The position numbers and the translations under genes are program-made. DNA of 64,000 nt, from contig NZ_SEWF01000021.1 of the NCBI RefSeq assembly GCF_004168285.1, forward strand, positions 1-64,000. Direction: 5' to 3'. Numbering within the stretch: the first letter of the stretch is position 1; each line of letters opens with the position of its first letter. Below the pieces are notes generated by a model. The model searched no databases and was not told the origin of the DNA. It saw nothing but the letters and a program-made list of their open reading frames with translations. Of the stretch, positions 1-13,482 are shown piece by piece. The stretch is from Emticicia agri (GTDB taxonomy: Bacteria; Bacteroidota; Bacteroidia; Cytophagales; Spirosomataceae).

Positions 1-396
1 AGATGCTACTTTAGCTGTATAAGGGTGTTTGGAAAGCATGATAGGCAATGAATCCACCAAAGATACATTATCATAGCAATCATTAAAATTCATTTGATTC
101 ATCAAATGGGAAATAATTACCTCAAAATGCCAGTATATTGCATTAATTCGTGCATTATAAGCTTGATATGACGGCAATTTTGGAAACCATGATGACCAAT
201 GATTGACCATATAATTATAAGTTGAGCGATGGCTATAATGGCCTTCGAAAATACCACATAGGTAAATCGTTATTGCCTCTTGGTCTGTAAATTCAGGACA
301 ATTATTATTGCTCTGTCTTTGGAAATGTAAACTCATGTGCGTATCATAGCACTCACAAACAAGGCTGTAAGTTTGTATTAATTGTAAAGGTCGCAT
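1..396 (-). CDS. DDE-type transposase, N-terminal part, cut by the window edge
   Basis: An open frame of 132 codons starts at the ATG complementary to 394-396 and runs off the left edge without a stop. An in-frame TGA lies shortly upstream of the ATG, and AGGAGT lies about 20 bases before it. The protein begins MRPLQLIQTYSL and contains LVDSLPIMLSKHP near its end, which resembles the first catalytic Asp region (hDS-P) of IS982/IS4-like transposases. The family call is from motif memory only. The downstream catalytic residues and the other end of the element are outside the window, so it cannot be said whether the gene is intact. It is the only mobile-element gene seen here. Confidence 0.7.
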   Translation of the reverse strand, partial: MRPLQLIQTYSLVCECYDTHMSLHFQRQSNNNCPEFTDQEAITIYLCGIFEGHYSHRSTYNYMVNHWSSWFPKLPSYQAYNARINAIYWHFEVIISHLMNQMNFNDCYDNVSLVDSLPIMLSKHPYTAKVAS

Positions 397-448
397 TTTG
401 CAATTTAACAAAATACTCCTTGTTTGTTTCTGATAATTTCAACCCTTG

Positions 449-467
449 ATTCACATTAAAAGTGAAT
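449..467. repeat. 6-bp inverted repeat upstream of the transposase
   Basis: ATTCAC and GTGAAT are separated by seven bases between the transposase start and the esterase stop codon. It may belong to the end of the insertion element. On the minus strand the bases starting at 485 read ACCTC, and some IS982-type ends begin with ACC, but the opposite end is not visible so the boundary is a guess. Confidence 0.3.
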
Positions 468-486
468 TAACGTAAGTAAAGAGGTA

Positions 487-1380
487 TTATTTCCCGAACA
501 ACCATTTCAAAAAAACAGGCATAGCTTCACTCCATGTTTTCGGATTATGTTCTCCATCTTTTACTTCGTAATACACTATATCAACGTTTTTTTTGTAGCC
601 AAGGTTTTCTAATTCGGTAATTAAGTCAAGGGTATCTTCAATTGAGTCTATAATGCCATTATTATTTCTGTCGTCTTTTTCGTCATTTGTACCACATTCA
701 AACCAGAATTCCTGCCCATGATGATAACTACCATTTTTTACGATCGTGTGCATAATTCTGTCTTTATCTTCATCATACCCTTCTTCATAAGCTTTCTTGC
801 GCCACCAGAATGACCCACTGAATACCCCGACCTTAGAAAAAACTTCAGAATTATTCCAGACAATATCCATAGCAGAAAGACCACCTAAAGAAAACCCGCA
901 GAAGAAATTATCTTTTTTGTCTGCTGATACTGAATAATACCCTCTGATATAAGGTAAAAACTCTTTTACGATAAAGTTAGTATAGTGCTGGGCTAAATCA
1001 CCTCTGTTTTTATAGTCTGCCACAGAAGCTGTTCCATATTCTCTTAGCCGCTTTTCGTTGGTATGAATAGCCACCAAAACAAAAGGTTCTATTTCTGAGT
1101 TCTGATAAAGATTCAGTATTACCTTTTCCATATTCAGGGCTGATAAGTCCTGTCCGTCATTCATTAATAATACTTTGCCGGGTTGAACATTGTTCTGATA
1201 ATTGGGTGGTAAAATTACATCGTATATAACTTCTCTGTTTAGGTATTCTGACTGAATTTTAAGGTTTTTCTGAACGGAAATCTGATGCACTTGTGAGTAG
1301 GTTTTAATGGATAAAAAGACTGATAAAAAAGTAATTAGCCGTATTGCCCGAACAAAATTTTTCCAAATCATTTGTTTCAT
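487..1380 (-). CDS. Secreted esterase-family alpha/beta hydrolase
   Basis: A 297-residue protein with an N-terminal hydrophobic segment (about residues 12-25) ending TYSQ, consistent with a signal peptide and a periplasmic or outer location. It has the esterase-D/enterochelin-esterase-like fold pattern: nucleophile elbow GFSLGG at 162-167 (Ser164) and a C-terminal DGEHNPKTW with the likely catalytic His278. DDRNNNGIID near 236-245 looks like an EF-hand-type calcium loop inserted before the acid/histidine region. The substrate cannot be read from the sequence. ATG at 1380 is used; a second Met at residue 4 is an equally possible start. The stop codon lies two bases from the possible end of the insertion element on its left. 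It is transcribed away from the ligase cluster on its right and is probably not part of it. Confidence 0.8.
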   Translation of the reverse strand: MKQMIWKNFVRAIRLITFLSVFLSIKTYSQVHQISVQKNLKIQSEYLNREVIYDVILPPNYQNNVQPGKVLLMNDGQDLSALNMEKVILNLYQNSEIEPFVLVAIHTNEKRLREYGTASVADYKNRGDLAQHYTNFIVKEFLPYIRGYYSVSADKKDNFFCGFSLGGLSAMDIVWNNSEVFSKVGVFSGSFWWRKKAYEEGYDEDKDRIMHTIVKNGSYHHGQEFWFECGTNDEKDDRNNNGIIDSIEDTLDLITELENLGYKKNVDIVYYEVKDGEHNPKTWSEAMPVFLKWLFGK

Positions 1381-1663
1381 TGATTAAAATCGACTAATAT
1401 TTCAGTTAAATGTTTTATTCTGACAAAAATACAAATTCATCATACGAAAACACCAAAACTAATCAAAACAATATTTTATTTTTTATTACACAATTTATAC
1501 AAAATTTTATATTTGACAAAAAGATAAAAACATTTAATAATCAAAATTTTATTTGGCAAAATATTTTTTCATATACAGATTATCTGCGATTTTTGCATAA
1601 AAATATTTCATCAATCAAATAAACTGCTCTTAAAGCAAAGACCTTTTAAGCACTCTAAGCTGT

Positions 1664-2383
1664 ATGGACGAAAAACATATTAAATTCTTTTCTCATTTTT
1701 TGGGCAGAGATATTGACATTTTAATTAGTGGCCATTGGGGCTATCCGATTCTTATGTTTCCGACCTCTATGGGCAATTACCTTCAAAACCGTGACTTCGG
1801 ACTCAATAATTCTGTTGCTAATCTCGTAAATGACGGTAAAGTAAAACTTTATAACGTTGATAGTATCGATTTCCAGAGTTTCTATGGACAAGGATTATCT
1901 CCAAATGTCAAAATTTTCAATTATAACCTCTATACCCGTTTCATTCGGGAAGAACTGGTTCCATCAATTCAGAGAGAATGTAGCGTTCACCGTATTGCCG
2001 TTGCCGGATGCAGTTTCGGAGGATACCATTGTACCAACTTTGCCCTGAAATACCCCGATGTAGTGGATTATTGTTTCAGCCTGAGTGGAGCATTTGACAT
2101 TAAGAGTTTCATGAAAGGATACTTTGATGATAATGTGTATTTCAATAATCCGATTGATTATATGCAGAATCAGGATGGTTGGAAATACAATCACATGAAA
2201 ATTGTATTGGGCACCTCTGATTGGGATATATGCAAAGATGACAACATTAATATGTCAAGAATACTCGCCGCCAGAGGCATTGACCACTGGTATGATGAAA
2301 AGAAATGGGCATCGCACGACTGGCCACTCTGGCGCATGATGTTCCCTGAATATGTAGGCAAAATGGTGGCCGGACAGTTATAA
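1664..2383 (+). CDS. Esterase-like alpha/beta hydrolase, first gene of the ligase cluster
   Basis: A 239-residue cytoplasmic protein without a signal peptide. It has a nucleophile elbow GCSFGG at 115-120 (Ser117), a probable acid Asp in GTSDWD (186-188) and a C-terminal SHDWPLW with His218, so a full alpha/beta-hydrolase triad is present. It resembles the COG4947 group of putative esterases, whose substrates are not known. The next four genes on the same strand are two ATP-grasp-type ligases, a YbdK-type carboxylate-amine ligase and a glutamine amidotransferase. The hydrolase may therefore release or trim an ester or amide product of that pathway; this is inference from neighbourhood only. 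About 280 AT-rich bases upstream would hold its promoter. Confidence 0.8.
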   Translation: MDEKHIKFFSHFLGRDIDILISGHWGYPILMFPTSMGNYLQNRDFGLNNSVANLVNDGKVKLYNVDSIDFQSFYGQGLSPNVKIFNYNLYTRFIREELVPSIQRECSVHRIAVAGCSFGGYHCTNFALKYPDVVDYCFSLSGAFDIKSFMKGYFDDNVYFNNPIDYMQNQDGWKYNHMKIVLGTSDWDICKDDNINMSRILAARGIDHWYDEKKWASHDWPLWRMMFPEYVGKMVAGQL

Positions 2384-2479
2384 GGCCATAATTGATTAAA
2401 TCCGGTTATACAGTAAAATGAATTTATATCCATTACATTTAATAAAATAATAAAGCAAAATCTAAATCAAGACTTGTTT

Positions 2480-3592
2480 ATGAAAAAAATAGGAATTCTT
2501 TTTGGCATGGAAGACACTTTTCCGTGGGCATTTATTGAAGAAGTAAACAGAACTGCTCCTGCAGGAATCATCGCCGAGCCTGTATCAATTGCTAAAGTAG
2601 AACAAGGGGTAGCAACAGATTATGCCGTAATTATAGATAGAATATCACAAGATGTGCCATTTTACAGAGCATATTTAAAAAATGCAGCCCTTTGCGGTAC
2701 AGCAGTAATCAACAACCCTTTCTGGTGGAGTGCTGACGAAAAGTTTTTCAACAACTGTCTGGCTATAAAGTTAGGTGTTCCGGTACCTAAAACGGTTCTT
2801 TTACCATCAAAAGAAAGACCAACAGATACCACTGAAAAATCATTCAGAAACCTTAAATTTCCGATGGATTGGGAATATATGTTCGGCCAAATCGGTTTCC
2901 CGGCCTATATGAAACCTCATGCAGGTGGTGGCTGGAAAAGTGTGTATAAAGTATATGACCCAAATGACCTTTGGCAAAAACACGAAGAAACAGGCCAGTT
3001 AGTGATGTTATTGCAAGAAGAAATTCAGTTTACTGATTACTATCGTTGCTACTGCTTGAATGGTAAATATGTACATATTATGCCGTACGAACCACGCAAT
3101 CCGCATCATTTACGTTATGCTACACAACCTAAAACACAAGGTGAAGAGCATAAAAAATTGATGGCAACTATTACAGACTATGTATTAAGATTAAACAAAG
3201 CATTAGGTTACGATTTTAATACGGTTGAATTTGCCATCCGTGACGGAATCCCTTATGCCATTGACTTCTGTAATCCTGCGCCGGATGCTGATGTAAATTC
3301 GGTAGGACAGAAGAATTTTGAATGGATTGTGGAAAATGCTGCTAAAATGGCTATTGAAAGAGCGATTGAGCAAAAAGATGGCAAAAATAACTGTACCTGG
3401 GGTACATTTATAGGGTCTTCGGCCTTAGGAAATGGGGCTGATTTATTGATACCATCAGCACAAAATCCTGTAGCAGAGAAAAAACCTGCGCCTGCTAAAA
3501 AAGCAGAAGCAACACCAAAGGCAGCTCCGGCCAAGAAAGCTCCGGCTGCTAAAAAGGATGAAGCTTCTGCAAAACCAGCAAAGAAGAAATAA
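2480..3592 (+). CDS. ATP-grasp ligase with lysine/alanine-rich C-terminal tail
   Basis: A 370-residue protein counted from ATG 2480; a TTG two codons earlier is in frame but less likely. Visible ATP-grasp features are the lysine and glycine-rich loop YMKPHAGGGWKSV (143-155), the hinge-like LLQEEIQ (177-183), and a metal-binding end with IDFCNPAPD (261-269), where Asp takes the place of the usual Glu before the Asn. ATP-grasp enzymes join a carboxylate to an amine or other nucleophile through an acyl phosphate. Residues about 331-370 are a low-complexity tail of PAKKA-like units ending AKPAKKK, similar in composition to histone H1 tails and unrelated to the catalytic fold. Substrates are unknown. 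It is followed after 83 bases by a YbdK-type ligase, with a stem-loop between them. Confidence 0.85.
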   Translation: MKKIGILFGMEDTFPWAFIEEVNRTAPAGIIAEPVSIAKVEQGVATDYAVIIDRISQDVPFYRAYLKNAALCGTAVINNPFWWSADEKFFNNCLAIKLGVPVPKTVLLPSKERPTDTTEKSFRNLKFPMDWEYMFGQIGFPAYMKPHAGGGWKSVYKVYDPNDLWQKHEETGQLVMLLQEEIQFTDYYRCYCLNGKYVHIMPYEPRNPHHLRYATQPKTQGEEHKKLMATITDYVLRLNKALGYDFNTVEFAIRDGIPYAIDFCNPAPDADVNSVGQKNFEWIVENAAKMAIERAIEQKDGKNNCTWGTFIGSSALGNGADLLIPSAQNPVAEKKPAPAKKAEATPKAAPAKKAPAAKKDEASAKPAKKK

Positions 3593-3603
3593 ACGAATGA
3601 ATA

Positions 3604-3633
3604 GGTTGGCAATATGCCTGATTATTGCCAACC
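3604..3633 (+). promoter_or_regulatory. Perfect 10-bp stem-loop between two ligase genes
   Basis: GGTTGGCAAT at 3604-3613 pairs exactly with ATTGCCAACC at 3624-3633 around a 10-base loop. No T-run follows, so it is not a classical terminator. It begins 12 bases after the ATP-grasp stop and ends 43 bases before the next start, so it could set mRNA stability or unequal expression of the two ligases. Confidence 0.55.
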
Positions 3634-3675
3634 AGACTAAACTGTTCCACTGTTAACCCCTGAACTAAGAAAATT

Positions 3676-4773
3676 ATGTCACAATTCACATTAGGTATTG
3701 AGGAAGAATTTCAGACTATTGACCCAAAAACTCGTGAGCTTCGTTCACACATGTCTAAATTAGTTGAGGGAGGCCAGGTAATTTTGCAGGAAAGAATCAA
3801 ACAGGAAATGCACCAGGCGGTGGTGGAAATGATTTCAAGCGTTTGCGAGAATATTCAGCAAGCCAGAGAGGAAGTAACTTATCTGCGACGGATGTTGTTT
3901 GACTTAGCTGCTAAACAGAATCTTCAGATTGCAGCAGCAGGAACGCACCCGTTTTCAGACTGGCAGAAACAATTAATTACGCCTAATGAAAGATACGAGA
4001 AGCTAATAGACGATATGCGCGATGTGGCTCGCTCAAACCTGATTTTCGGTTTGCACGTTCACGTTGGTATCCCAAACCGGGAAGAAGGTATTCAGATTCT
4101 GAATACTGCAAGGTATTTCCTGCCGCATATTTATGCGCTCTCTACCAACTCTCCATTCTGGTGTGGCCGTAATACAGGTTTCAAATCTTATCGGTCGAAA
4201 GTATTTGATAAATTTCCAAGAACAGGTATTCCTGATTATTTTTCGAGCGTTGCAGAGTACGATAATTACGTTAATCTGTTGATAAAAACTAATTGTATTG
4301 ATAATGGAAAGAAAATCTGGTGGGATATCCGTTTGCATCCTTTCTATCCTACGGTCGAATTCAGAATATGTGATATTCCGATGCGGGTCGATGAAACTAT
4401 CTGTTTAGCAGCACTGATGCAGGCAATTATAGCCAAAATTCATAAGTTACATAAACAGAATTTGAGTTTTCGTACTTATCATAGAATGCTCATCAGCGAA
4501 AATAAATGGCGTGCTGCCAGATATGGGATTCAAGGAAATCTGATTGATTTTGGTAAAGAAACAGAAGTTCCCTATTCTCATCTGGCCGAAGAACTTATGG
4601 AATTTGTGGATGATGTATTAGATGAGTTAGGAAGTCGTAAAGAGGTAGAGTATATTCATGAAATACTAAAAATGGGCAGTGGAGCAGACCGACAATTAAA
4701 AGTATTTGAAGAAACAAACAGCCTGAAATCGGTGGTTGATTACATTGTTTCAGAAACTAAAATCGGTCTTTAG
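3676..4773 (+). CDS. YbdK-type carboxylate-amine ligase (GCS2 family)
   Basis: A 365-residue protein of normal length for the GCS2/YbdK family, which forms gamma-glutamyl-type amide bonds using ATP on a glutamine-synthetase-like fold. It opens with LGIEEEFQ (6-13), the family's metal-binding Glu cluster, followed by AAAGTHPF (87-93), LHVHVG (126-131) with paired histidines, and NSPFWCGRNTGFKSYR further on. WWDIRLHPFYPTVEFRICD matches the conserved C-terminal core. E. coli YbdK has only weak glutamate-cysteine ligase activity and its true substrate is unsettled. Here the flanking ATP-grasp and amidotransferase genes argue for a dedicated pathway rather than glutathione synthesis. No gshB-like glutathione synthetase can be named from the neighbours. 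Confidence 0.9.
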   Translation: MSQFTLGIEEEFQTIDPKTRELRSHMSKLVEGGQVILQERIKQEMHQAVVEMISSVCENIQQAREEVTYLRRMLFDLAAKQNLQIAAAGTHPFSDWQKQLITPNERYEKLIDDMRDVARSNLIFGLHVHVGIPNREEGIQILNTARYFLPHIYALSTNSPFWCGRNTGFKSYRSKVFDKFPRTGIPDYFSSVAEYDNYVNLLIKTNCIDNGKKIWWDIRLHPFYPTVEFRICDIPMRVDETICLAALMQAIIAKIHKLHKQNLSFRTYHRMLISENKWRAARYGIQGNLIDFGKETEVPYSHLAEELMEFVDDVLDELGSRKEVEYIHEILKMGSGADRQLKVFEETNSLKSVVDYIVSETKIGL

Positions 4774-4820
4774 TAAGTGAACGAAACAGTCGCTTAATTT
4801 TGTTATATGCTTTTAATAGC

Positions 4821-4865
4821 AATAAAATCCTGTAAGGTATTTACTTACAGGATTTTATTTTTGTT
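4821..4865 (+). terminator. Rho-independent terminator after the YbdK-type gene
   Basis: A perfect 16-bp stem (4821-4836 with 4844-4859) and a 7-base loop are followed by a short T-rich stretch. It separates the YbdK-type gene from the amidotransferase, so the cluster is not one simple operon. Confidence 0.85.
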
Positions 4866-4928
4866 AATTTTGTATTAAATTTTACTAATATAAGCCTTGC
4901 TGCCTATACAGCAAGCCTGTTGTGTTTT

Positions 4929-5741
4929 ATGAATATTGCAATTTTAGACCTTTACGACGGAAAAACCAATGAGGGTATGCGTTGTATTAAGATGTTATGC
5001 GACCAGTTTTTATCGCAGGAAGGGATTAATGGTGGCTATGATATTTTTGATGTGCGTCAAAAAAATGAAATCCCGGACATAAACAAGTATCAGATTTTTA
5101 TTTCTACAGGTGGCCCGGGCAGTCCATTACCGGAAGGCCATGCCTGGGAACAGAAATATTATGACTTTATAGACTCTATTTTTGCCTATAACAAGCACAA
5201 TGAAGTAAAGAAATATGTTTTTCTGATTTGTCATTCTTTTCAGATTGTGAGCCATCATTTAGGATTTGGTCAGGTATGCAAAAGAAAATCAACTTCATTT
5301 GGTGTGATGCCTATGCACCGCACAGAAGATGGCCAAAATGAGCCCTTATTCGAGAAATTGCCTGAGCTTTTCTTCGCTGTCGACTCAAGAGATTATCAGT
5401 TGATACAACCCAACTGGGAGAAAATCAACGAATTTGGGGCAAAAATACTGTGTTTAGAAAAAGTCCGGCCTTATGTTCCTTTGGAAAGGGCAGTTATGGC
5501 TATCAGATTTTCTGATGAAGTTTTCGGTACCCAGTTTCACCCTGAAGCAGACTCAGAAGGAATGATGCGTTATTTTAAGCAGGAAGAAAAAATGCTGGCA
5601 GTTATTAAGGAATATGGTGTCGAAAAATACGAAGAAATGATTGAGCGTTTAGACGACCCTGACAAGATTATGCTTACCGAATCGGTTGTTATCCCGACAT
5701 TTCTCCGTACTGCCACCGAAAATATTTTGGAATTGGCATAA
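4929..5741 (+). CDS. Class I glutamine amidotransferase-like protein
   Basis: A 270-residue protein counted from ATG 4929; an upstream TTG at 4920 is in frame but less likely. It shows the class I glutamine amidotransferase pattern: oxyanion-side STGGPGSP (59-66), nucleophile Cys101 in LICHSFQ, and the His-Glu pair in FHPEAD (His204, Glu206). Such domains hydrolyse glutamine to supply ammonia, or act as gamma-glutamyl hydrolases on amide bonds. A C-terminal part of about 60 residues extends past the amidotransferase fold. Placed between two ligases, it could feed ammonia to one of them or cleave a gamma-glutamyl intermediate; the sequence does not decide which. A strong stem-loop lies on each side, so it probably has its own promoter. 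Confidence 0.85.
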   Translation: MNIAILDLYDGKTNEGMRCIKMLCDQFLSQEGINGGYDIFDVRQKNEIPDINKYQIFISTGGPGSPLPEGHAWEQKYYDFIDSIFAYNKHNEVKKYVFLICHSFQIVSHHLGFGQVCKRKSTSFGVMPMHRTEDGQNEPLFEKLPELFFAVDSRDYQLIQPNWEKINEFGAKILCLEKVRPYVPLERAVMAIRFSDEVFGTQFHPEADSEGMMRYFKQEEKMLAVIKEYGVEKYEEMIERLDDPDKIMLTESVVIPTFLRTATENILELA

Positions 5742-5752
5742 TTGATATTGAT

Positions 5753-5784
5753 AAACTGGTTATAGCTTCCTATAACCAGTTTTG
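5753..5784 (+). terminator. Terminator-like stem-loop after the amidotransferase
   Basis: A perfect 13-bp stem (5753-5765 with 5770-5782) with loop CTTC ends in a four-base T-run. The T-run is short, so termination may be partial. Confidence 0.65.
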
Positions 5785-5856
5785 CCTTACTTCAAAAATT
5801 ATTTGTGTTTTGTAACCACAATCTTTAATTTCAATCCATTAATACTTCTCCTATTT

Positions 5857-7053
5857 ATGATACCTGAAATTCGTCAGCAATACAATGAAAGTTTTTCCAA
5901 TGAAAAGTATCAGGCGTTATTAGCCGAGATTGAAAAAGATTTTCCTTCACAATTAGACTTTCGGGTGGCTGAAACGCCAGTATTTGTACCGCAATCACTC
6001 AAAATTAGGCTTCTACAGGCTTGCAATGATATTATTGATTCTTTACTTAAAGACGACTTCAAAGCCTGGACGATCAGGGCAATTCCGGCCAATCAGCATG
6101 TACCCAATGAAGACAATCATCCGAATTTTTTAGCCATTGATTTTGCAGTTTGTCGGGATGAAAATGGAGACCTGACTCCACAATTAATTGAATTACAGGG
6201 ATTTCCGTCATTATATGGGTATCAGTGGTATATAGGTCAGAAGTATAAGAAATTCTTCTACAATCCTAAGAATTTCAATCAGTACTTCAACAGACTGAAT
6301 ATGGCTACTTATGTAGAGTTTATGAAAAAAGTTTTTCTGGGAGGCGAAAAGGCTGAGAATGTTATTCTGCTTGAAATTTATCCCGAAAAACAGAAAACAA
6401 GGCTTGATTTTGAAATCACCAAACAGTTGTGGGGTATTGAATCGGTTTGCTACACTAAAATAAAGAAAGACGGTCGTAAACTCTATTATGAAAAAGACGG
6501 TAGAAAAATTAAAATCAAACGCATCTACAACCGCCTGATTTTTGATGATTTATTGCAGAATTTCCCTGATTTAGAAACAGACTTTAAACTAACTGATGAT
6601 GTTGATGTAAAATGGGTAACACATCCAAACTGGTTTTTCAGAATCAGCAAGTTTACTTTACCCCTACTCAACAGTCCATTTGTACCTAAAAGCTATTACT
6701 TATCAGAATTAAAAGAATATCCTGCTGATTTAGAAAACTACGTATTAAAACCCTTGTTTTCGTTTGCCGGAAGCGGTGTAAAACTCAATTTCACCAAAGA
6801 AGATTTAGATGCTATTGAAGACAAGGAAAACTTTCTGATTCAGCGTAAAGTGAAATATGAACCCATTATTAAAGACCCAGATGGCAATCTGATAAAAACA
6901 GAAATCAGAATGTTATTTGCCTGGGAAGATTCAGCACCACGCCCTACACTTGTTACAAATCTGGCCCGATTGAGCAGAGGAGAAATGATTGGGGTAAACT
7001 TTAATAAGAATTTTGATTGGGTTGGCGGTAGTTGCGGATTCTTTGAAGACTGA
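5857..7053 (+). CDS. ATP-grasp-like protein, last gene of the ligase cluster
   Basis: A 398-residue protein from ATG 5857. An in-frame TTG at 5782 would start inside the preceding stem-loop and is rejected. The C-terminal half has YVLKPLFSFAGSGVKL, a lysine plus glycine-rich loop typical of ATP-grasp, then FLIQRKVKYE, which resembles the ATP hinge. The N-terminal half has LTPQLIELQGFPSLYGYQ, which looks like the acidic metal-binding strand that normally sits at the C-terminal end, so the fold may be circularly permuted. That reading is tentative. Charged stretches such as KKDGRKLYYEKDGRK fill the middle. The substrate is unknown. It closes the five-gene run and is followed by a strong terminator. 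Confidence 0.75.
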   Translation: MIPEIRQQYNESFSNEKYQALLAEIEKDFPSQLDFRVAETPVFVPQSLKIRLLQACNDIIDSLLKDDFKAWTIRAIPANQHVPNEDNHPNFLAIDFAVCRDENGDLTPQLIELQGFPSLYGYQWYIGQKYKKFFYNPKNFNQYFNRLNMATYVEFMKKVFLGGEKAENVILLEIYPEKQKTRLDFEITKQLWGIESVCYTKIKKDGRKLYYEKDGRKIKIKRIYNRLIFDDLLQNFPDLETDFKLTDDVDVKWVTHPNWFFRISKFTLPLLNSPFVPKSYYLSELKEYPADLENYVLKPLFSFAGSGVKLNFTKEDLDAIEDKENFLIQRKVKYEPIIKDPDGNLIKTEIRMLFAWEDSAPRPTLVTNLARLSRGEMIGVNFNKNFDWVGGSCGFFED

Positions 7054-7081
7054 TGCTCTGCAACCTTACAATTGAGTATAG

Positions 7082-7119
7082 ATGCCGATAATCGTAAAAG
7101 CGACTTATCGGCATTTTTT
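7082..7119 (+). terminator. Rho-independent terminator ending the ligase cluster
   Basis: ATGCCGATAA at 7082-7091 pairs with TTATCGGCAT at 7105-7114, with a further small inner stem, and six T residues follow. Confidence 0.9.
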
Positions 7120-7201
7120 CAATAATTCTTTATATCCAGTATATTTTTTCGATTTTATTGATTAGTTTGGAAGTCTATTCAACCAAGAATTCCTATTACA
7201 C

Positions 7202-8569
7202 ATGAAATCAAATCAGACCTACTTCATTTTCTTACTCCTCCTCTTTGGTTTTAGTGTTTCTGCACAAACCTTTTCTGTAAGTGAAAACAAACGTTTCTTA
7301 TTAAAAGATGGCAAACCTTTTTTCTGGTTAGGAGATACCGCATGGGAATTATTCCATCGCCTCAACCGGGAAGAAGCAGATTTCTATCTTAAAAAACGTG
7401 CTTCACAAGCCTATACAGTTATTCAGGCAGTTGCATTGGCTGAGTTTGACGGCTTGAATGAGCCGAACCCTTATGGAGAAAAACCTTTGATTAACAATGA
7501 CCCTACAAAGCCCAATGAAGCTTATTTTAAACACGTCGATTTTATAATTGATAAAGCGGCTGAATATGGTTTAACCATAGGTTTTTTACCAACCTGGGGA
7601 GATAAACTGAATAAATCAAGCTGGGGTAAAGGTCCTGAGGTTTTTACTGTCGATAATGCCCGGATTTATGGTAAGTGGCTATCAATCCGTTACAAAAACA
7701 AAAAAAATATAATCTGGATACTGGGTGGAGACAGGCAACCACGAGACAACTCAAATGATGTAGAAGTCTGGAGAGCTATGGCTGCAGGTATTGTAGAGGG
7801 TGTGGGTGGCAATGATAATGCCCTTATAACTTACCATCCGCAACCAAATAAAGAAGGTTCAAGCCAATGGTTTCATGACGATGAGTGGTTTGACTTTAAT
7901 ATGTTTCAGAATGGGCATTGCAGAGATACCCCTATTTATGATAATATCAAACGTTCTTATGACCGCACTGTGATAAAACCGGTAATTGATGGCGAACCTA
8001 TTTATGAAGATCACCCAGTTTGTTTTAATGTCAATGATTTAGGTACGTCAAACGCTTACGATGTGCGTAAATATGCCTATCTCGACCTTTTTGCTGGCGC
8101 ATTCGGGCATACCTATGGTTGCCATGACATCTGGCAAATGTATTCAGCAAATCGTGAAGCGGTGAATGGTCCGCATATTTACTGGCAGGAAGCAATGGAA
8201 TTGCCCGGTGCCAGACAAATGCAACATGCCAGACGATTAATAGAATCACGTCCTTTTTTGGACAGAGTACCAGACCAGTCATTAATCGTTGAAAATGACT
8301 TAGCCGCAAGCGAACGCATTCAGGCAACCAGAGGAAAAGATTATGCCTTTATTTATTCTGCCGCCGGAAAACCATTTACAGTTAATTTAGGTAGAATATC
8401 AGGCACTCAACTCAATGCTTACTGGTTTGACCCCAAAAATGGTAAAGTGCAGGAGATTAATAAAGTTGAGAATAAAGGTACTCAAAAATTTACTCCTCCA
8501 CGTTCAGGCTATGGGCAAGACTGGGTATTGGTTTTAGATGATGCTTCTAAGAATTTTCCTAAACCATAA
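7202..8569 (+). CDS. Secreted GH140-like (DUF4038) glycoside hydrolase
   Basis: A 455-residue protein with a clear signal peptide (about 1-21, ending SVSAQ). The core begins with KDGKPFFWLGDTAWELF and continues through NIIWILGGDRQPR and VIDGEPIYED, the pattern of the DUF4038/apiosidase-like TIM barrel. Asp177 and Glu265 are the likely acid/base and nucleophile. The last 90 or so residues, ending in a beta-rich part with YWFDPKNGK and DWVLVLDD, fit the small collagen-binding-like C-terminal domain usually found with it. GH140 members release apiose from pectic rhamnogalacturonan II, but many relatives have other or unknown targets. No other pectin gene is nearby, so the substrate is open. It sits alone between two terminators. 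Confidence 0.85.
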   Translation: MKSNQTYFIFLLLLFGFSVSAQTFSVSENKRFLLKDGKPFFWLGDTAWELFHRLNREEADFYLKKRASQAYTVIQAVALAEFDGLNEPNPYGEKPLINNDPTKPNEAYFKHVDFIIDKAAEYGLTIGFLPTWGDKLNKSSWGKGPEVFTVDNARIYGKWLSIRYKNKKNIIWILGGDRQPRDNSNDVEVWRAMAAGIVEGVGGNDNALITYHPQPNKEGSSQWFHDDEWFDFNMFQNGHCRDTPIYDNIKRSYDRTVIKPVIDGEPIYEDHPVCFNVNDLGTSNAYDVRKYAYLDLFAGAFGHTYGCHDIWQMYSANREAVNGPHIYWQEAMELPGARQMQHARRLIESRPFLDRVPDQSLIVENDLAASERIQATRGKDYAFIYSAAGKPFTVNLGRISGTQLNAYWFDPKNGKVQEINKVENKGTQKFTPPRSGYGQDWVLVLDDASKNFPKP

Positions 8570-8599
8570 GTATAATCTTAGCAATCATCTATACTTTCT

Positions 8600-8628
8600 G
8601 GACTTCTTCTTTTGGAGAAGTCCGTTTT
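8600..8628 (+). terminator. Terminator between convergent genes
   Basis: An 8-bp stem (8600-8607 with 8616-8623) is followed by GTTTTG. It lies between the GH140-like gene and the convergent secreted-protein operon. Confidence 0.65.
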
Positions 8629-8629
8629 G

Positions 8630-9343
8630 TTAAAAGTCTCTATACTCAATACTCACGCCTCTGATACTAAGAAAAGTCCAGGTATTAGCCGAATTTCTCA
8701 ATTTTAAAGAATAGACGTAATTCTGATTATCTATTTCTAATAAGTTAATCGGGAATTCAGCTACAATCAATGATGAGTTTGAAGAAGTTGGTGTGGTAAA
8801 ACTAAAAATGGTACTTAGACCACTCCCCTCATTTAGTGGTGCCTGCACAATATCTCCAATTAGAGAGTTAGGCTCAATAGGGTATGAATAAAAAGTAATT
8901 TTTATAGAGGCCAGTTTGCTTCTATGCGGAAAATAAAGAGGAGCTAAAAGCGTTTTATTACTACTTGTAGAAATTGAAGTTATTCTATCTGCATCATAAC
9001 TTACTATATCAATTCCTAAGCCCGAAGCTTGTCCTTCTGATTGTACATCCCAATCTAATCTGAATGCAACAGGTGGAATACTAAAATATCCAACTTTGTA
9101 TCCCGTTACTAAATAACCCTCTCCATTAGCATAGATTGGTCTTGCAATGAAAGGGTTTCCGGTTGCCAGACCACTGGCCCTAACAGTATGGCTTTCTGTA
9201 ATACCCTGTACTTTTAAATTCCCTTGTACATCCTGAATATGAGTTCCATTCGGATCGATAGTAACTGATTTAGGTTGAGGTATTTGTGCAAATATTTGAG
9301 CTGAAAGTAAACAAAAGCCAAAAATAAACCATATGTTTTTCAT
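8630..9343 (-). CDS. Secreted protein of unknown function, third gene of operon
   Basis: I do not recognise the family. The 237-residue protein has a signal peptide (about 1-19, ending QIFAQ). The mature part is beta-rich and low in charge, with many Ser, Thr and Tyr residues, and carries no visible enzyme motif. Its early part, PNGTHIQDVQGNLKVQG, resembles the start of stalk or fibre proteins that precede an S74-type domain, but no such domain is present. Its ATG overlaps the stop codon of the S74-domain gene upstream by one base (TAATG on the minus strand). The two are therefore probably translationally coupled and may form one surface structure. Confidence 0.7.
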   Translation of the reverse strand: MKNIWFIFGFCLLSAQIFAQIPQPKSVTIDPNGTHIQDVQGNLKVQGITESHTVRASGLATGNPFIARPIYANGEGYLVTGYKVGYFSIPPVAFRLDWDVQSEGQASGLGIDIVSYDADRITSISTSSNKTLLAPLYFPHRSKLASIKITFYSYPIEPNSLIGDIVQAPLNEGSGLSTIFSFTTPTSSNSSLIVAEFPINLLEIDNQNYVYSLKLRNSANTWTFLSIRGVSIEYRDF

Positions 9344-10584
9344 TATTTTTTAGTTTTAGGGGTATTAAGAGTGGTTTCCTGAGCTAATATTACTTTCTCA
9401 AGTCTTTCAACTCTGGATAATAAATCTTCATTTTGTTTTTGCAGAATTTTATTCGCTTCCACCAGATGAGGGATTAATCCTACGTAATTGACTGATAAAA
9501 AACCTTTGGCATCAGTGGTTACCAATTCAGGGAAAATCTTTTGAATTTCCTGCGCAATAAAACCAGTTTGCAAGTCTGTCATTTTCTCATTCTTCCACAA
9601 ATAATTAAAACCTTTCAACTGAGAAAGTCTTAGAGACGAGTTCTGAACTGGCCGAAAATCTTTCTTTAACCGGATATCAGAACAAATAGTCGGAGTAGTT
9701 GCATAACAAATGCTTCCAGAATAGACATTCCATCTTTGAATCCAATCATTCAAACCATAACCAAAAATTCCCATTTCACTATTCCCCCTCATACCGATAT
9801 AACCATCTGAGAGAGAGTTACTTGAAAAGTCAATTCCCGCATCGGCGGTATTTGCCCCTTTAAAAACTTTTAACTTCCCATCAAAATAAGCACTATAACC
9901 ATTAACTGATGAAGCCAATAAGGCTACATTTCCAGCAGAAACTGCCACAACTCCATAGCTATCTGTAGAATGCCCGTAAACACCTTGCCCAATAGTTGAA
10001 AAGCCGGCAACTGCCGGATATCTATAAGAAGTACCATATACACCATAACCAGTCTGTGACTCACCTTCAATTCCATTTCCTGATACTGATCTACCTTTTA
10101 CACCCACAAAAGAATCTGAAATACCAACCATACCATACCCCGAAGTCGATGAACCTAAAACACCATAGCCACTCGGTGCAACTCCTTTGATGGCAGTGTT
10201 ATTTAATCCGGCTGGTGCAGTAACTGTCAAGAAATCAGAAGCTATCGGTGTTACGTTCCCAATCCATACATTAGTACCATTATTTTTAAAATTATCATCA
10301 GCTACCCAGTTAGTGCCACTGTTACGCAAAGTCTGATGATTTGTACCCGAAGGAAGCGAATTTGTTCCTACTAAGTTAAGCCACGAAGTTCCGTTCGAAT
10401 ATTCATGTATGTTTTCGGTAGTATTAAATAAAACACTACCTGTTCCTACAGTATTGGCCGAGGGTCGATTAGAAGTAGTATATTTGGGAAAGGCAATACT
10501 CTGGCTGCTTATTTCACCTGATTGTCCTATGGCTATTTTAATCGCTAATAAAATAACACATATACATAGTAGTAATTTTTTCAT
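9343..10584 (-). CDS. Secreted fibre-like protein with S74 intramolecular chaperone domain
   Basis: A 413-residue protein with a signal peptide (about 1-20). Residues about 130-235 hold irregular repeats of the type GYGVxGxS, such as SGYGVLGSS, SGYGMVGIS, TGYGVYGTS and GQGVYGHS, suggesting a beta-helical or triple-stranded shaft. From about 300 the sequence SDIRLKKDFRPVQ, then LKGFNYLWKNE, then TGFIAQEIQKIFPELV is the classic peptidase S74/endosialidase chaperone domain, which trims itself off and helps trimer folding. A terminal coiled coil follows (ILQKQNEDLLSRVERLEK). In phages such domains sit on tail fibres; in Bacteroidota, chromosomal secreted versions are common and no phage genes surround this one. 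It overlaps the genes on both sides (ATGA upstream, TAATG downstream). Confidence 0.85.
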   Translation of the reverse strand: MKKLLLCICVILLAIKIAIGQSGEISSQSIAFPKYTTSNRPSANTVGTGSVLFNTTENIHEYSNGTSWLNLVGTNSLPSGTNHQTLRNSGTNWVADDNFKNNGTNVWIGNVTPIASDFLTVTAPAGLNNTAIKGVAPSGYGVLGSSTSGYGMVGISDSFVGVKGRSVSGNGIEGESQTGYGVYGTSYRYPAVAGFSTIGQGVYGHSTDSYGVVAVSAGNVALLASSVNGYSAYFDGKLKVFKGANTADAGIDFSSNSLSDGYIGMRGNSEMGIFGYGLNDWIQRWNVYSGSICYATTPTICSDIRLKKDFRPVQNSSLRLSQLKGFNYLWKNEKMTDLQTGFIAQEIQKIFPELVTTDAKGFLSVNYVGLIPHLVEANKILQKQNEDLLSRVERLEKVILAQETTLNTPKTKK

Positions 10585-11006
10585 AATTTCTTAAAAGTGT
10601 AGGTCAGAATATTCTTTTTATAAGGTCCCATTTTGGTGGCATCAACACTAAAATCTACTTTATTTCCTTTCTGTTCAACTTCGTAAATCAGTTCTTTCAG
10701 ACCCATTGCCTGTGCAATTTCTTTAGTAAAATTGCCTCTTAGAATCAATTGACTACCCTTTAATTCCCATGTGCCTTCCTGAATCAAATTATCTTGTCGG
10801 GCAATAAATTTGCTGTTACTCATAAATTCCCAGATTATACTTACACCTTTCTCTTTAAGGTTATTCAGCGCTGTTAAGGTAGTGCCATTTTGTTTCGTTA
10901 TAGAGAAGGTTGTACTCTCGCATTCCCATTTTCCGTTTAAAGTTTGGGCACATAGATTGTTCAGCAAAAGCAAAGTGCAAAGCACTGAAGTCAGGTAAAA
11001 TTTCAT
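10581..11006 (-). CDS. Small secreted lipocalin-like protein, first gene of operon
   Basis: A 141-residue protein with a signal peptide (about 1-20, ending NNLCAQ). The mature part starts LNGKWECES and continues in alternating short strands with GTWELKGSQLILRG, a pattern of small lipocalin-like or META-like beta barrels that bind a ligand or act as surface scaffold. There is no catalytic motif. The last four bases overlap the start of the fibre-like gene (ATGA), which marks it as the promoter-proximal member of a three-gene secreted operon. The 210 bases upstream carry the aconitase terminator and presumably this operon's promoter. Confidence 0.75.
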   Translation of the reverse strand: MKFYLTSVLCTLLLLNNLCAQTLNGKWECESTTFSITKQNGTTLTALNNLKEKGVSIIWEFMSNSKFIARQDNLIQEGTWELKGSQLILRGNFTKEIAQAMGLKELIYEVEQKGNKVDFSVDATKMGPYKKNILTYTFKKL

Positions 11007-11161
11007 GCTAATAATAAGTTTAATTATCTGACAAAATAACTCAATAAAGAAACCGCTGTAAATAGCATATTGATGTTACAGAATTAGCCTCTAAGTAAAA
11101 AGCTTTATATAAAAATGCTCGATAAGTGTAATAGAAGCGAAAAACATAAGCGAAGAAGGCA

Positions 11162-11195
11162 AAAAAAATATCCTGCGTTTCCACAGGATATTTTC
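11162..11195 (-). terminator. Rho-independent terminator of the aconitase gene
   Basis: An 11-bp perfect stem (11166-11176 with 11185-11195) runs into eight T residues when read on the minus strand, 22 bases past the aconitase stop. Confidence 0.9.
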
Positions 11196-11217
11196 AGGTA
11201 ATATATAATTTCAGGTA

Positions 11218-13482
11218 TTAAACTTCTGCCGCAATCAGATTTAAGGCTGAACCAGCTTTGAACCAGCCAATCTGGCTTGTATTATACGTGTGGTTCAATT
11301 TGATTTCGTCTTTAGACCCGTCTGCATGATGTGCTACTAAAGTCAAAGGCACTCCCTCGGCAAAGGTGGTTAAACCTAAGATATCGAAAGTATCATTTTC
11401 CTGAATTTTGTCATAATCTGCCGGGTCAGCAAAAGTCAATGCCAGCATCCCTTGTTTTTTCAAGTTTGTTTCGTGGATACGAGCAAATGAACGAACAACA
11501 ATAGCACGAACACCTAAGTGACGTGGCTCCATAGCTGCGTGCTCACGTGATGAACCCTCACCGTAGTTTTCGTCTCCCACTACAATGGTTCCCACACCTG
11601 CGGCTTTATAGGCACGTTGCACAGCCGGAACTTCACCATATTCGCCTGTTATCTGATTTTTCACTTTATTGGCAGTACCGTTAGCAAAGTTAATGGCCCC
11701 AATCAACAGGTTATTAGAGATATTATCTAAATGACCACGGTATTTTAACCAAGGACCTGCCATAGAGATATGGTCAGTAGTACATTTACCTTTAGCTTTT
11801 ATCAATAATTTTAATCCAGTCAGGTCAGTACCTTCCCATGCTTTAAATGGCTCGAGTAATTGTAAGCGGTCAGATGTCGGGCTAACGGCTACTTTCACAC
11901 CGCTACCATCTTTTTTAGGTTTCTGGTATCCGGCATCTTTTACATCAAAACCCAATGGAGGTAATTCAACACCTAATGGTGGGTCTAATTTCACCTGTTC
12001 ACCTTTTTCGTTAGTCAAGGTATCTTTCGCAGGGTTGAAAGTAAGGCTACCTGCAATAGCAAAAGCCGTTACGATTTCGGGAGAGGCTACGAATGCGTGC
12101 GTATTCGGGTTACCATCTGCACGTTTCGCAAAGTTTCTGTTAAACGAAGTAATGATTGAGTTACGCTCTCCTTTTTCTGCACCATGTCTTGCCCATTGCC
12201 CGATACACGGTCCACAGGCATTGGCTAACACTACGCCACCTATCGAGCTAAACGTGTCTAAAATACCATCTCTTTCAGCCGTATAACGTACCTGCTCAGA
12301 ACCTGGGGTAATCGTAAACTCCGCTTTGGCAGCAATGTGCTTGGCAGCAGCCTGTGCAGCAATTGAGGCGGCACGTGTCATATCTTCATAAGAAGAGTTA
12401 GTACATGAACCTATCAAACCTACATCTAATTTCTCAGGCCATTTGTTTTTCTTAACAGCTTTAGCGAATTTAGAAAGAGGCCAGGCCAAATCTGGTGTGA
12501 ATGGACCATTGATACGTGGTTCTAATCTTGAAAGATTGATTTCAATTACCTGGTCATAATATAGTTCAGGATTATCAATACATTCCTGGTCAGGACGAAG
12601 TAAGTCTTTAATGCCATTGGCTAAAGAAGCTACTTTTGCACGGCCGGTTGCTTTTAAGTAAGCAGCCATTTTACGGTCATAACCAAACAATGAAGTAGTG
12701 GCACCAATTTCAGCACCCATGTTACAGATAGTACCTTTACCAGTTGCCGATAAAGCATCTGCACCCTTACCTATATATTCAACAATATATCCTGTTCCAC
12801 CTTTTACAGTCAGGCGGCCTGCTACTTCAAGAATTACGTCTTTTGCAGAAGCCCAGCCTTTTAGTTTTCCGGTTAATTTTACGCCAATTAGTTTTGGCAT
12901 TTTCAACTCCCATGCCAGACCCGACATTACGTCGCAGGCATCAGCACCACCCACGCCAATGGCTACCATACCCAAACCACCTGCGTTTGGTGTATGTGAG
13001 TCAGTACCAATCATCATACCGCCCGGAAAAGCATAGTTTTCAATCACTACCTGATGAATGATACCAGCACCTGCTTTCCAGAAACCAATACCGTATTTAT
13101 TAGAAACCGATGAAAGAAAATCATAAACCTCTTTATTTTTTTCGTTGGCAACTTTTAAATCATCTACCGCACCCACTTTAGCCTGAATCAGGTGATCACA
13201 ATGAACCGTAGACGGAACAGCAACTTTTGGGCGTCCGGTAGTCATAAACTGTAATAATGCCATCTGAGCGGTAGCATCTTGCATAGCTACACGGTCAGGA
13301 GCAAAATCCACATAATCAACCCCTCTGTTATATGCTTTTTCGGGAGCCCCTTCCCATAAGTGAGAATAAAGAATTTTTTCCGCTAAGGTCAGAGGTTTTC
13401 CCACTATTTTGCGGGCTGCTTCTACCCTTTCAGGCATTCGAGCATAAACGCTCTTAATCATATCTAAATCAAAAACTGCCAT
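11218..13482 (-). CDS. acn: Aconitate hydratase, mitochondrial-like type
   Basis: A 754-residue cytoplasmic enzyme converting citrate to isocitrate in the tricarboxylic acid cycle. The iron-sulfur ligands are visible: Cys360 in [12 protein letters not shown], and Cys423 and Cys426 in [10 protein letters not shown]. Other conserved blocks are [13 protein letters not shown] (159-171), STVHCDH and, in the C-terminal swivel domain, [12 protein letters not shown]. Length and block order fit the mitochondrial-type aconitases used by many Bacteroidota rather than the longer bacterial AcnA or AcnB. It is a single-gene unit, with a good promoter upstream and a terminator downstream. Confidence 0.97.

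Follow-up and report, generated by a model that had tools for sequence, protein, structure and literature searches.

A widespread Bacteroidota cluster of three ATP-dependent ligases and two hydrolases as a candidate pathway for a small gamma-glutamyl peptide

The window analysed here, a 64,000-nucleotide stretch of Emticicia agri contig NZ_SEWF01000021.1, carries five neighbouring plus-strand open reading frames (ORFs) at positions 1664-7053, termed est, grasp1, ybdK, gat and grasp2. They form a real amidoligase cluster, which is widespread and functionally coupled. With moderate confidence, we interpret this cluster as one that makes a small gamma-glutamyl (pseudo)peptide non-ribosomally, because it brings together three ligases from groups whose members form peptide-like bonds, grasp1, ybdK and grasp2 co-occur even when they are unlinked, relatives pack the genes tightly, and exopeptidase genes of the M29, M42 and S10 types recur at the loci. 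If this is correct, many Bacteroidota share a small metabolite that has so far been overlooked. The cluster and its immediate surroundings comprise the following features.

est0: 487..1380, minus strand; divergent PF00756 esterase gene (84.6 bits, cut-off 22), the sixth gene in many cluster copies
est: 1664..2383, plus strand; alpha/beta hydrolase, PF00756, 239 aa
grasp1: 2480..3592, plus strand; predicted ATP-grasp ligase, 370 aa; its Lys/Ala/Pro-rich C-terminal tail is disordered
ybdK: 3676..4773, plus strand; predicted GCS2-family carboxylate-amine ligase, 365 aa
terminator-like hairpin: 4821..4859, plus strand; 16 pairs and a T-rich tail, in the ybdK-gat interval of the window copy
gat: 4929..5741, plus strand; thiol hydrolase of the class-I glutamine amidotransferase (GATase) fold, 270 aa, predicted gamma-glutamyl peptidase
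grasp2: 5857..7053, plus strand; predicted ATP-grasp ligase of the glutathione-synthetase/glutathionylspermidine (GSP)-synthase fold, 398 aa, without a match in Pfam or NCBIfam

The five genes lie where an initial annotation of the window had placed them. Their starts were chosen by fit to the sequence and to homologs (est 1664; grasp1, ATG at 2480; ybdK 3676; gat, ATG at 4929; grasp2, ATG at 5857), and the TTG starts that the ORF list gives at 2474, 4920 and 5782 seem to lie too far upstream.

The distribution of the genes was determined in one draw of 296 genomes of the phylum, which were searched separately for grasp2 (one protein, E 0.001), grasp1 (profile, 1e-30), and ybdK and gat (profiles, 1e-20). 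Because these are single-protein or strict searches, the counts may leave out diverged copies. grasp2 is carried by 92 genomes, grasp1 by 108, ybdK by 103 and gat by 70, and all four are present in 50. The pairs grasp1-ybdK (91 genomes), grasp1-grasp2 (89), ybdK-grasp2 (87), grasp1-gat (69), ybdK-gat (58) and gat-grasp2 (55) are associated by genome with Fisher p values of 1e-21 to 1e-52, which count related genomes. When 50 family labels are used, the association is observed for ybdK-grasp2 (p 4.0e-7), grasp1-grasp2 (1.5e-6), grasp1-gat (6.9e-5) and grasp1-ybdK (1.1e-4), and gat is unassociated with grasp2 (p 0.39) or ybdK (p 0.26). The family-level values therefore define grasp1, ybdK and grasp2 as the core, with gat following grasp1, and gat is the least tied member of the cluster. 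grasp1 occurs in 89 of the 92 grasp2 genomes compared with 19 of the 204 without a grasp2 match, and ybdK in 87 compared with 16. Both are present in 84 of the 92, which does not fit independent occurrence of the genes, the pattern that the initial annotation had associated with an accidental grouping. The exceptions are ybdK alone (9 genomes), grasp1 alone (4), grasp1, gat and grasp2 without ybdK (4), grasp1 and grasp2 only (1), and grasp2 carriers without grasp1 (3). At one locus (L073, genome G154), ybdK-gat-grasp2 adjoins neither est nor grasp1, and no grasp1 match was found elsewhere in the genome at E 1e-30; this arrangement is perhaps a natural deletion. The species with and without the genes form a set that is available for metabolite comparison. 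Plasmid-borne spread was dropped as a candidate, as no tblastn match of grasp1 was found in 72,556 plasmid records.

Gene order was compared at 92 grasp2 loci (91 fetched loci and the window), with neighbours lying up to 3.5 kb apart from start to start, an interval in which an extra gene may intervene. The order est-grasp1-ybdK-gat-grasp2 on one strand was observed at 26 of the 92 loci, in 7 families. Other loci read est-grasp1-ybdK-grasp2 (9), grasp1-ybdK-grasp2 (6) or other partial sets (15). A second set consists of the best 80 of at least 584 grasp1 finds, which come from named close relatives, including Emticicia, Dyadobacter, Hymenobacter and Chryseobacterium; we take these to be Bacteroidota. 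All five genes stand in order at 63 of these 80 loci and at one more (L193) in which grasp1 is split into two frames. The remaining 16 loci are incomplete, only some of them lying on short contigs; the Runella loci L148 and L150, for example, have no gat or grasp2 within about 15 kb. Because the 80 loci are the best-scoring relatives, the independent 296-genome draw was used as well. Both sets contain the same five genes side by side in other Bacteroidota, the comparison that the initial annotation had proposed, and accidental grouping is rejected by gene order together with co-occurrence.

The genes are closely spaced in relatives, with median gaps of 59 bp for est-grasp1 (109 pairs), 25 bp for grasp1-ybdK (116), 50.5 bp for ybdK-gat (96) and 24 bp for gat-grasp2 (104), where starts were estimated from profiles and pairs more than 1500 bp apart were excluded. 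Two loci of the named set have the same DNA as sample loci (L152 and L080; L164 and L077) and are counted twice in the gap and est0 figures over both sets. Among 13 fetched loci from genomes without grasp2, 9 have a gene for a 451-483-aa ligase standing between grasp1 and gat; the other 4 were left unclear by the ORF caller. Two of these middle ligases score 37.3 and 24.3 bits against CP_ATPgrasp_2 (cut-off 32), and a PF00756 esterase gene follows gat in one scanned locus.

The three genes that had been read as ATP-dependent amide-forming enzymes retain this assignment. ybdK exceeds the cut-offs of NF010039 (562.4 bits, cut-off 371), TIGR02050 (308.9, cut-off 176.4) and PF04107 (215.5, cut-off 21), and both TIGR02050 and NF010039 match all 17 aligned members (E <= 0.001). 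Its profile matches PDB entry 1r8g with E 3.9e-65 and the plant glutamate-cysteine ligases (GCLs) 6gmo and 2gwc with E 1.2e-5. The residues Pro181-Arg182-Thr183 are invariant in 17 sequences. ybdK resembles E. coli YbdK (hhalign E 6.6e-47, 29% identity), which has DNG where ybdK has a plant-GCL-type RTG, and the NSPF...GF.S.R...RTG stretch of the plant enzyme is retained, suggesting that glutamate is favoured as the acid. From these sequence features, ybdK is a YbdK-family carboxylate-amine ligase with predicted ATP-dependent gamma-glutamyl ligation, which differs from YbdK/GCS2 ligases by sitting in a multi-ligase cluster.

No library profile passed its cut-off for grasp1. Its match to R2K_2 lies under the cut-off, and its score against the RimK family TIGR00768 (rimK_fam), 28.8 bits with a cut-off of 143.4, places it outside that family. 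The structural model of grasp1 has a mean predicted local distance difference test (pLDDT) score of 79.4, lowest in the tail, and adopts an ATP-grasp fold, with 3r5x as the best Foldseek match in the PDB (E 7e-14) and further resemblance to Ddl, LysX/ArgX, a RimK-domain protein and graspetide macrocyclases. The Lys/Ala/Pro-rich tail (window about 3420-3592; pLDDT about 40) is carried by only some relatives. In family f24, all 8 fetched loci (L136, L137, L227, L228 and L230-L233) have a gene for an aromatic amino acid lyase after grasp1, where 2 of the 8 genes were scanned and another called ORF lies in between at 2 of the 8 loci; the lyase, seen in this family only, may be a hint to the substrate. 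At locus L139 of genome G208, an EmrA/EmrB-type efflux-like gene pair, named by eye, lies between grasp1 and ybdK.

The fold neighbours of grasp1 bear on protein tagging, which the initial annotation had also put forward and in which a protein would receive glutamate or a peptide from the ligases and lose it again through the hydrolases. The LysX/ArgX and RimK-domain groups include protein modifiers, and a Lys-rich tail ends some grasp1 proteins. Tagging nevertheless appears quite unlikely, as ybdK and grasp2 have their closest relatives among small-molecule ligases and no tag gene was seen between the genes, where the gaps of relatives are mostly too short for one; ORFs below 70 aa were uncalled, and a small tag could lie elsewhere.

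The grasp2 ligase was assigned primarily from its AlphaFold2 model, built with 34 relatives (mean pLDDT 94.3). Foldseek matches 36 PDB chains at E <= 0.001, every one a glutathione synthetase or a relative, with identities of 10-16%. Yeast glutathione synthase 1m0w is the top match (E 6.4e-14), followed among others by the putative GSP synthase 3n6x (2.6e-13), YgiC 7uk8 (2.5e-12), Gss 2io7 (3.2e-11), the fungal E-64 ligase Cp1B 9cjn (7.9e-11), YjfC, and nematode effectors of the glutathione-synthetase fold. The template modelling (TM) score to 1m0w, 3n6x, YgiC and Gss is about 0.6 on the query. The modelled fold of grasp2 is thus that of the ATP-grasp glutathione synthetases and GSP synthases and not that of RimK. 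The comparison with RimK that had been suggested stands in so far as both ligases are ATP-grasp proteins, and fails at the level of family for grasp1 and of fold for grasp2. When matched by eye, grasp2 residues Asp94, Glu111, Lys264, Lys297-Pro298 and Arg370 align with the RMDF, YEYN, GNK, VKP and LRG motifs of Gss; global hhalign alignments to YgiC and Gss were unusable, and the local one covers a single stretch. At three loci of family f28 (L055, L056 and L091), grasp2 is duplicated in tandem, with the L056 copies called as one 867-aa frame.

Two narrower forms of the gamma-glutamyl pathway follow from these structural relatives. In the first, ybdK and grasp1 would make a gamma-glutamyl peptide, which grasp2 would couple to a polyamine in the manner of GSP synthase or YgiC, and gat would be the matching amidase. 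The likeness of the grasp2 model to 3n6x, YgiC and Gss is consistent with this notion, as are the annotation of YgiC as a peptide--spermidine ligase, a weak match to PF03738 (glutathionylspermidine synthase) in 10 of 35 grasp2 sequences (best E 3.7e-4) and the polyamine gene NspC in the host. A polyamine conjugate is unlikely, however, since the top structural match is a glutathione synthase, PF03738 does not match the window grasp2, and a separate GSP_synth gene, well over its cut-off, is present in the host at C1:206325.

In the second form, ybdK would make gamma-Glu-Cys and grasp2 would finish a glutathione-like redox tripeptide. This agrees with the match of the ybdK profile to the plant GCLs, with yeast glutathione synthase as the best match of grasp2, and with the absence of a GshB match in the host. 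The bacillithiol marker gene bshC (BshC) was found in 291 of the 296 genomes, in 285 of them over the cut-off, so that a main thiol should be present whether or not a genome has the cluster, and grasp2 is present in only 92; no sign of cysteine use was observed. A thiol of this kind is very unlikely. Judging by the distribution of BshC, the cluster probably yields something other than the main thiol, which weakens the idea of a replacement for bacillithiol.

gat exceeds the cut-off of PF00117 (32.8 bits, cut-off 22.8), and its triad Cys101/His204/Glu206, already recognized in the initial annotation, is invariant in 18 aligned proteins. Ser103, two residues past the nucleophile, is also invariant, at a position where class-I GATases usually have Gly. 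At 5 loci from 4 families (f19, f30, f38 and f46), an M29-type gene takes the gat slot between ybdK and grasp2; the five fall into one sequence cluster, and the one scanned with Pfam scores 63.5 bits (cut-off 27). An M42 peptidase gene precedes gat at L037, and an S10-type carboxypeptidase gene follows ybdK at all 6 fetched loci of family f24 (one scanned). That exopeptidases of unrelated folds accompany the ligases time after time argues for a peptidase role of gat, and the M29-type gene in the same slot predicts, by analogy, a gamma-glutamyl peptidase. The protein had been described as an amidotransferase, which is right for the class-I GATase fold; for its role, a peptidase is more likely. 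If gat instead supplied ammonia from glutamine, one of the ligases would make a terminal amide. The score over the PF00117 cut-off, the intact triad and the touching or overlapping of gat and grasp2 in 28 of 104 pairs suit this proposal. It is nonetheless highly improbable, given the M29-type gene in the gat slot, which favours the peptidase role over ammonia supply, the lack of gat in many grasp2 genomes and the Ser103 residue.

est scores 42.3 bits against PF00756 (cut-off 22). Its putative catalytic residues are Ser117, Asp188 and His218, the Ser/Asp/His set noted initially; Asp188 and His218 are present in 16 of 16 aligned proteins and Ser117 in 15 (Asp in L054). An est0-like divergent PF00756 gene was observed within 1.5 kb upstream of est at 56 of 110 est-bearing loci, the window excluded (sample 12 of 36; named set, from the best 80 of at least 584, 44 of 74), or at 55 of 108 without repeated loci. 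est0 is thus a sixth member in about half of the copies examined. The initial view of amide-forming ligases and hydrolases as one functional group is retained, with its membership of five extended accordingly. The N-terminus of est0 in the window copy is signal-peptide-like, as judged by eye.

In the gamma-glutamyl pathway that we favour, the YbdK enzyme would join the glutamate gamma-carboxyl to an amine, and grasp1, with its Ddl/LysX-like fold, would add an amino acid. grasp2, with its glutathione-synthetase/peptide-spermidine-ligase fold, would add an amino acid or amine at the carboxyl end, as an extension or a cap. gat would remove or recycle the gamma-glutamyl group, and an ester or acyl form may be the substrate of one or two PF00756 esterases. 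Tentatively, and as a possibility rather than a probability, about a third of the sampled phylum species may produce a glutathione- or glutathionylspermidine-like gamma-glutamyl conjugate, so far undescribed, alongside bacillithiol, with an uncatalogued glutathione-synthetase-fold ligase family as the builder and a dedicated thiol peptidase and paired esterases for turnover. The pathway would also suggest a function class for the grasp2 ligase family, which lies outside the Pfam and NCBIfam copies used.

Several observations weigh against this interpretation. grasp2 has no partner alongside in 36 of the 92 genomes, although 32 of these 36 have grasp1 and ybdK elsewhere, and gat is missing in 37 of the 92. 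The Arg of the R-x-D motif of E. coli Gss is absent from grasp2 two residues before Asp94, and the Asn of E-x-N is replaced by Gln113 (Glu111-x-Gln113), which suggests that the substrate may differ from those of the relatives. Among called ORFs (at least 70 aa), no further gene family was found in more than 12 of the 92 grasp2 loci between -6.5 and +2.5 kb, and the most frequent other neighbours (12 of 92) are confined to few families; thus, no shared transporter, carrier or regulator points to the product. In the window copy, the terminator-like hairpin separates ybdK from gat and the intergenic gaps are wider than in relatives, so that the cluster may be more than one transcript here. Terminator-like sites in the region number 9, compared with 4.5 (standard deviation 2.2) in shuffles.

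Comparable systems have been described in part. Successive peptide bonds are often made by linked ligases, according to PMC4431377. The predicted amidoligase neighbourhoods in the accessible parts of PMC2588565 and PMC4431377 likewise combine linked peptide ligases of several folds with peptidases, and the present gene order is unnamed there. The order was not found in the literature searched, a scope that largely left aside subscription papers, where an earlier mention is possible. Cp1B, which shares its fold with grasp2, is described in PMC12568646 as a stand-alone pseudodipeptide-forming ligase, and YgiC/YjfC are named peptidylpolyamine synthetases there. Cp1B differs in being fungal and in joining epoxysuccinate to an amino acid (PMC12568646).

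An anti-phage defence system was also considered and dropped, as none of the five cluster proteins matches PADLOC models (E <= 0.001). The window holds no tRNA genes, and its positions 1-12000 no Rfam matches. Directly 3' of the cluster, and without a matching counterpart in the 91 fetched sample loci, lies an Apiosidase-like glycoside hydrolase gene with a PF12904 domain (window 7202-8569).

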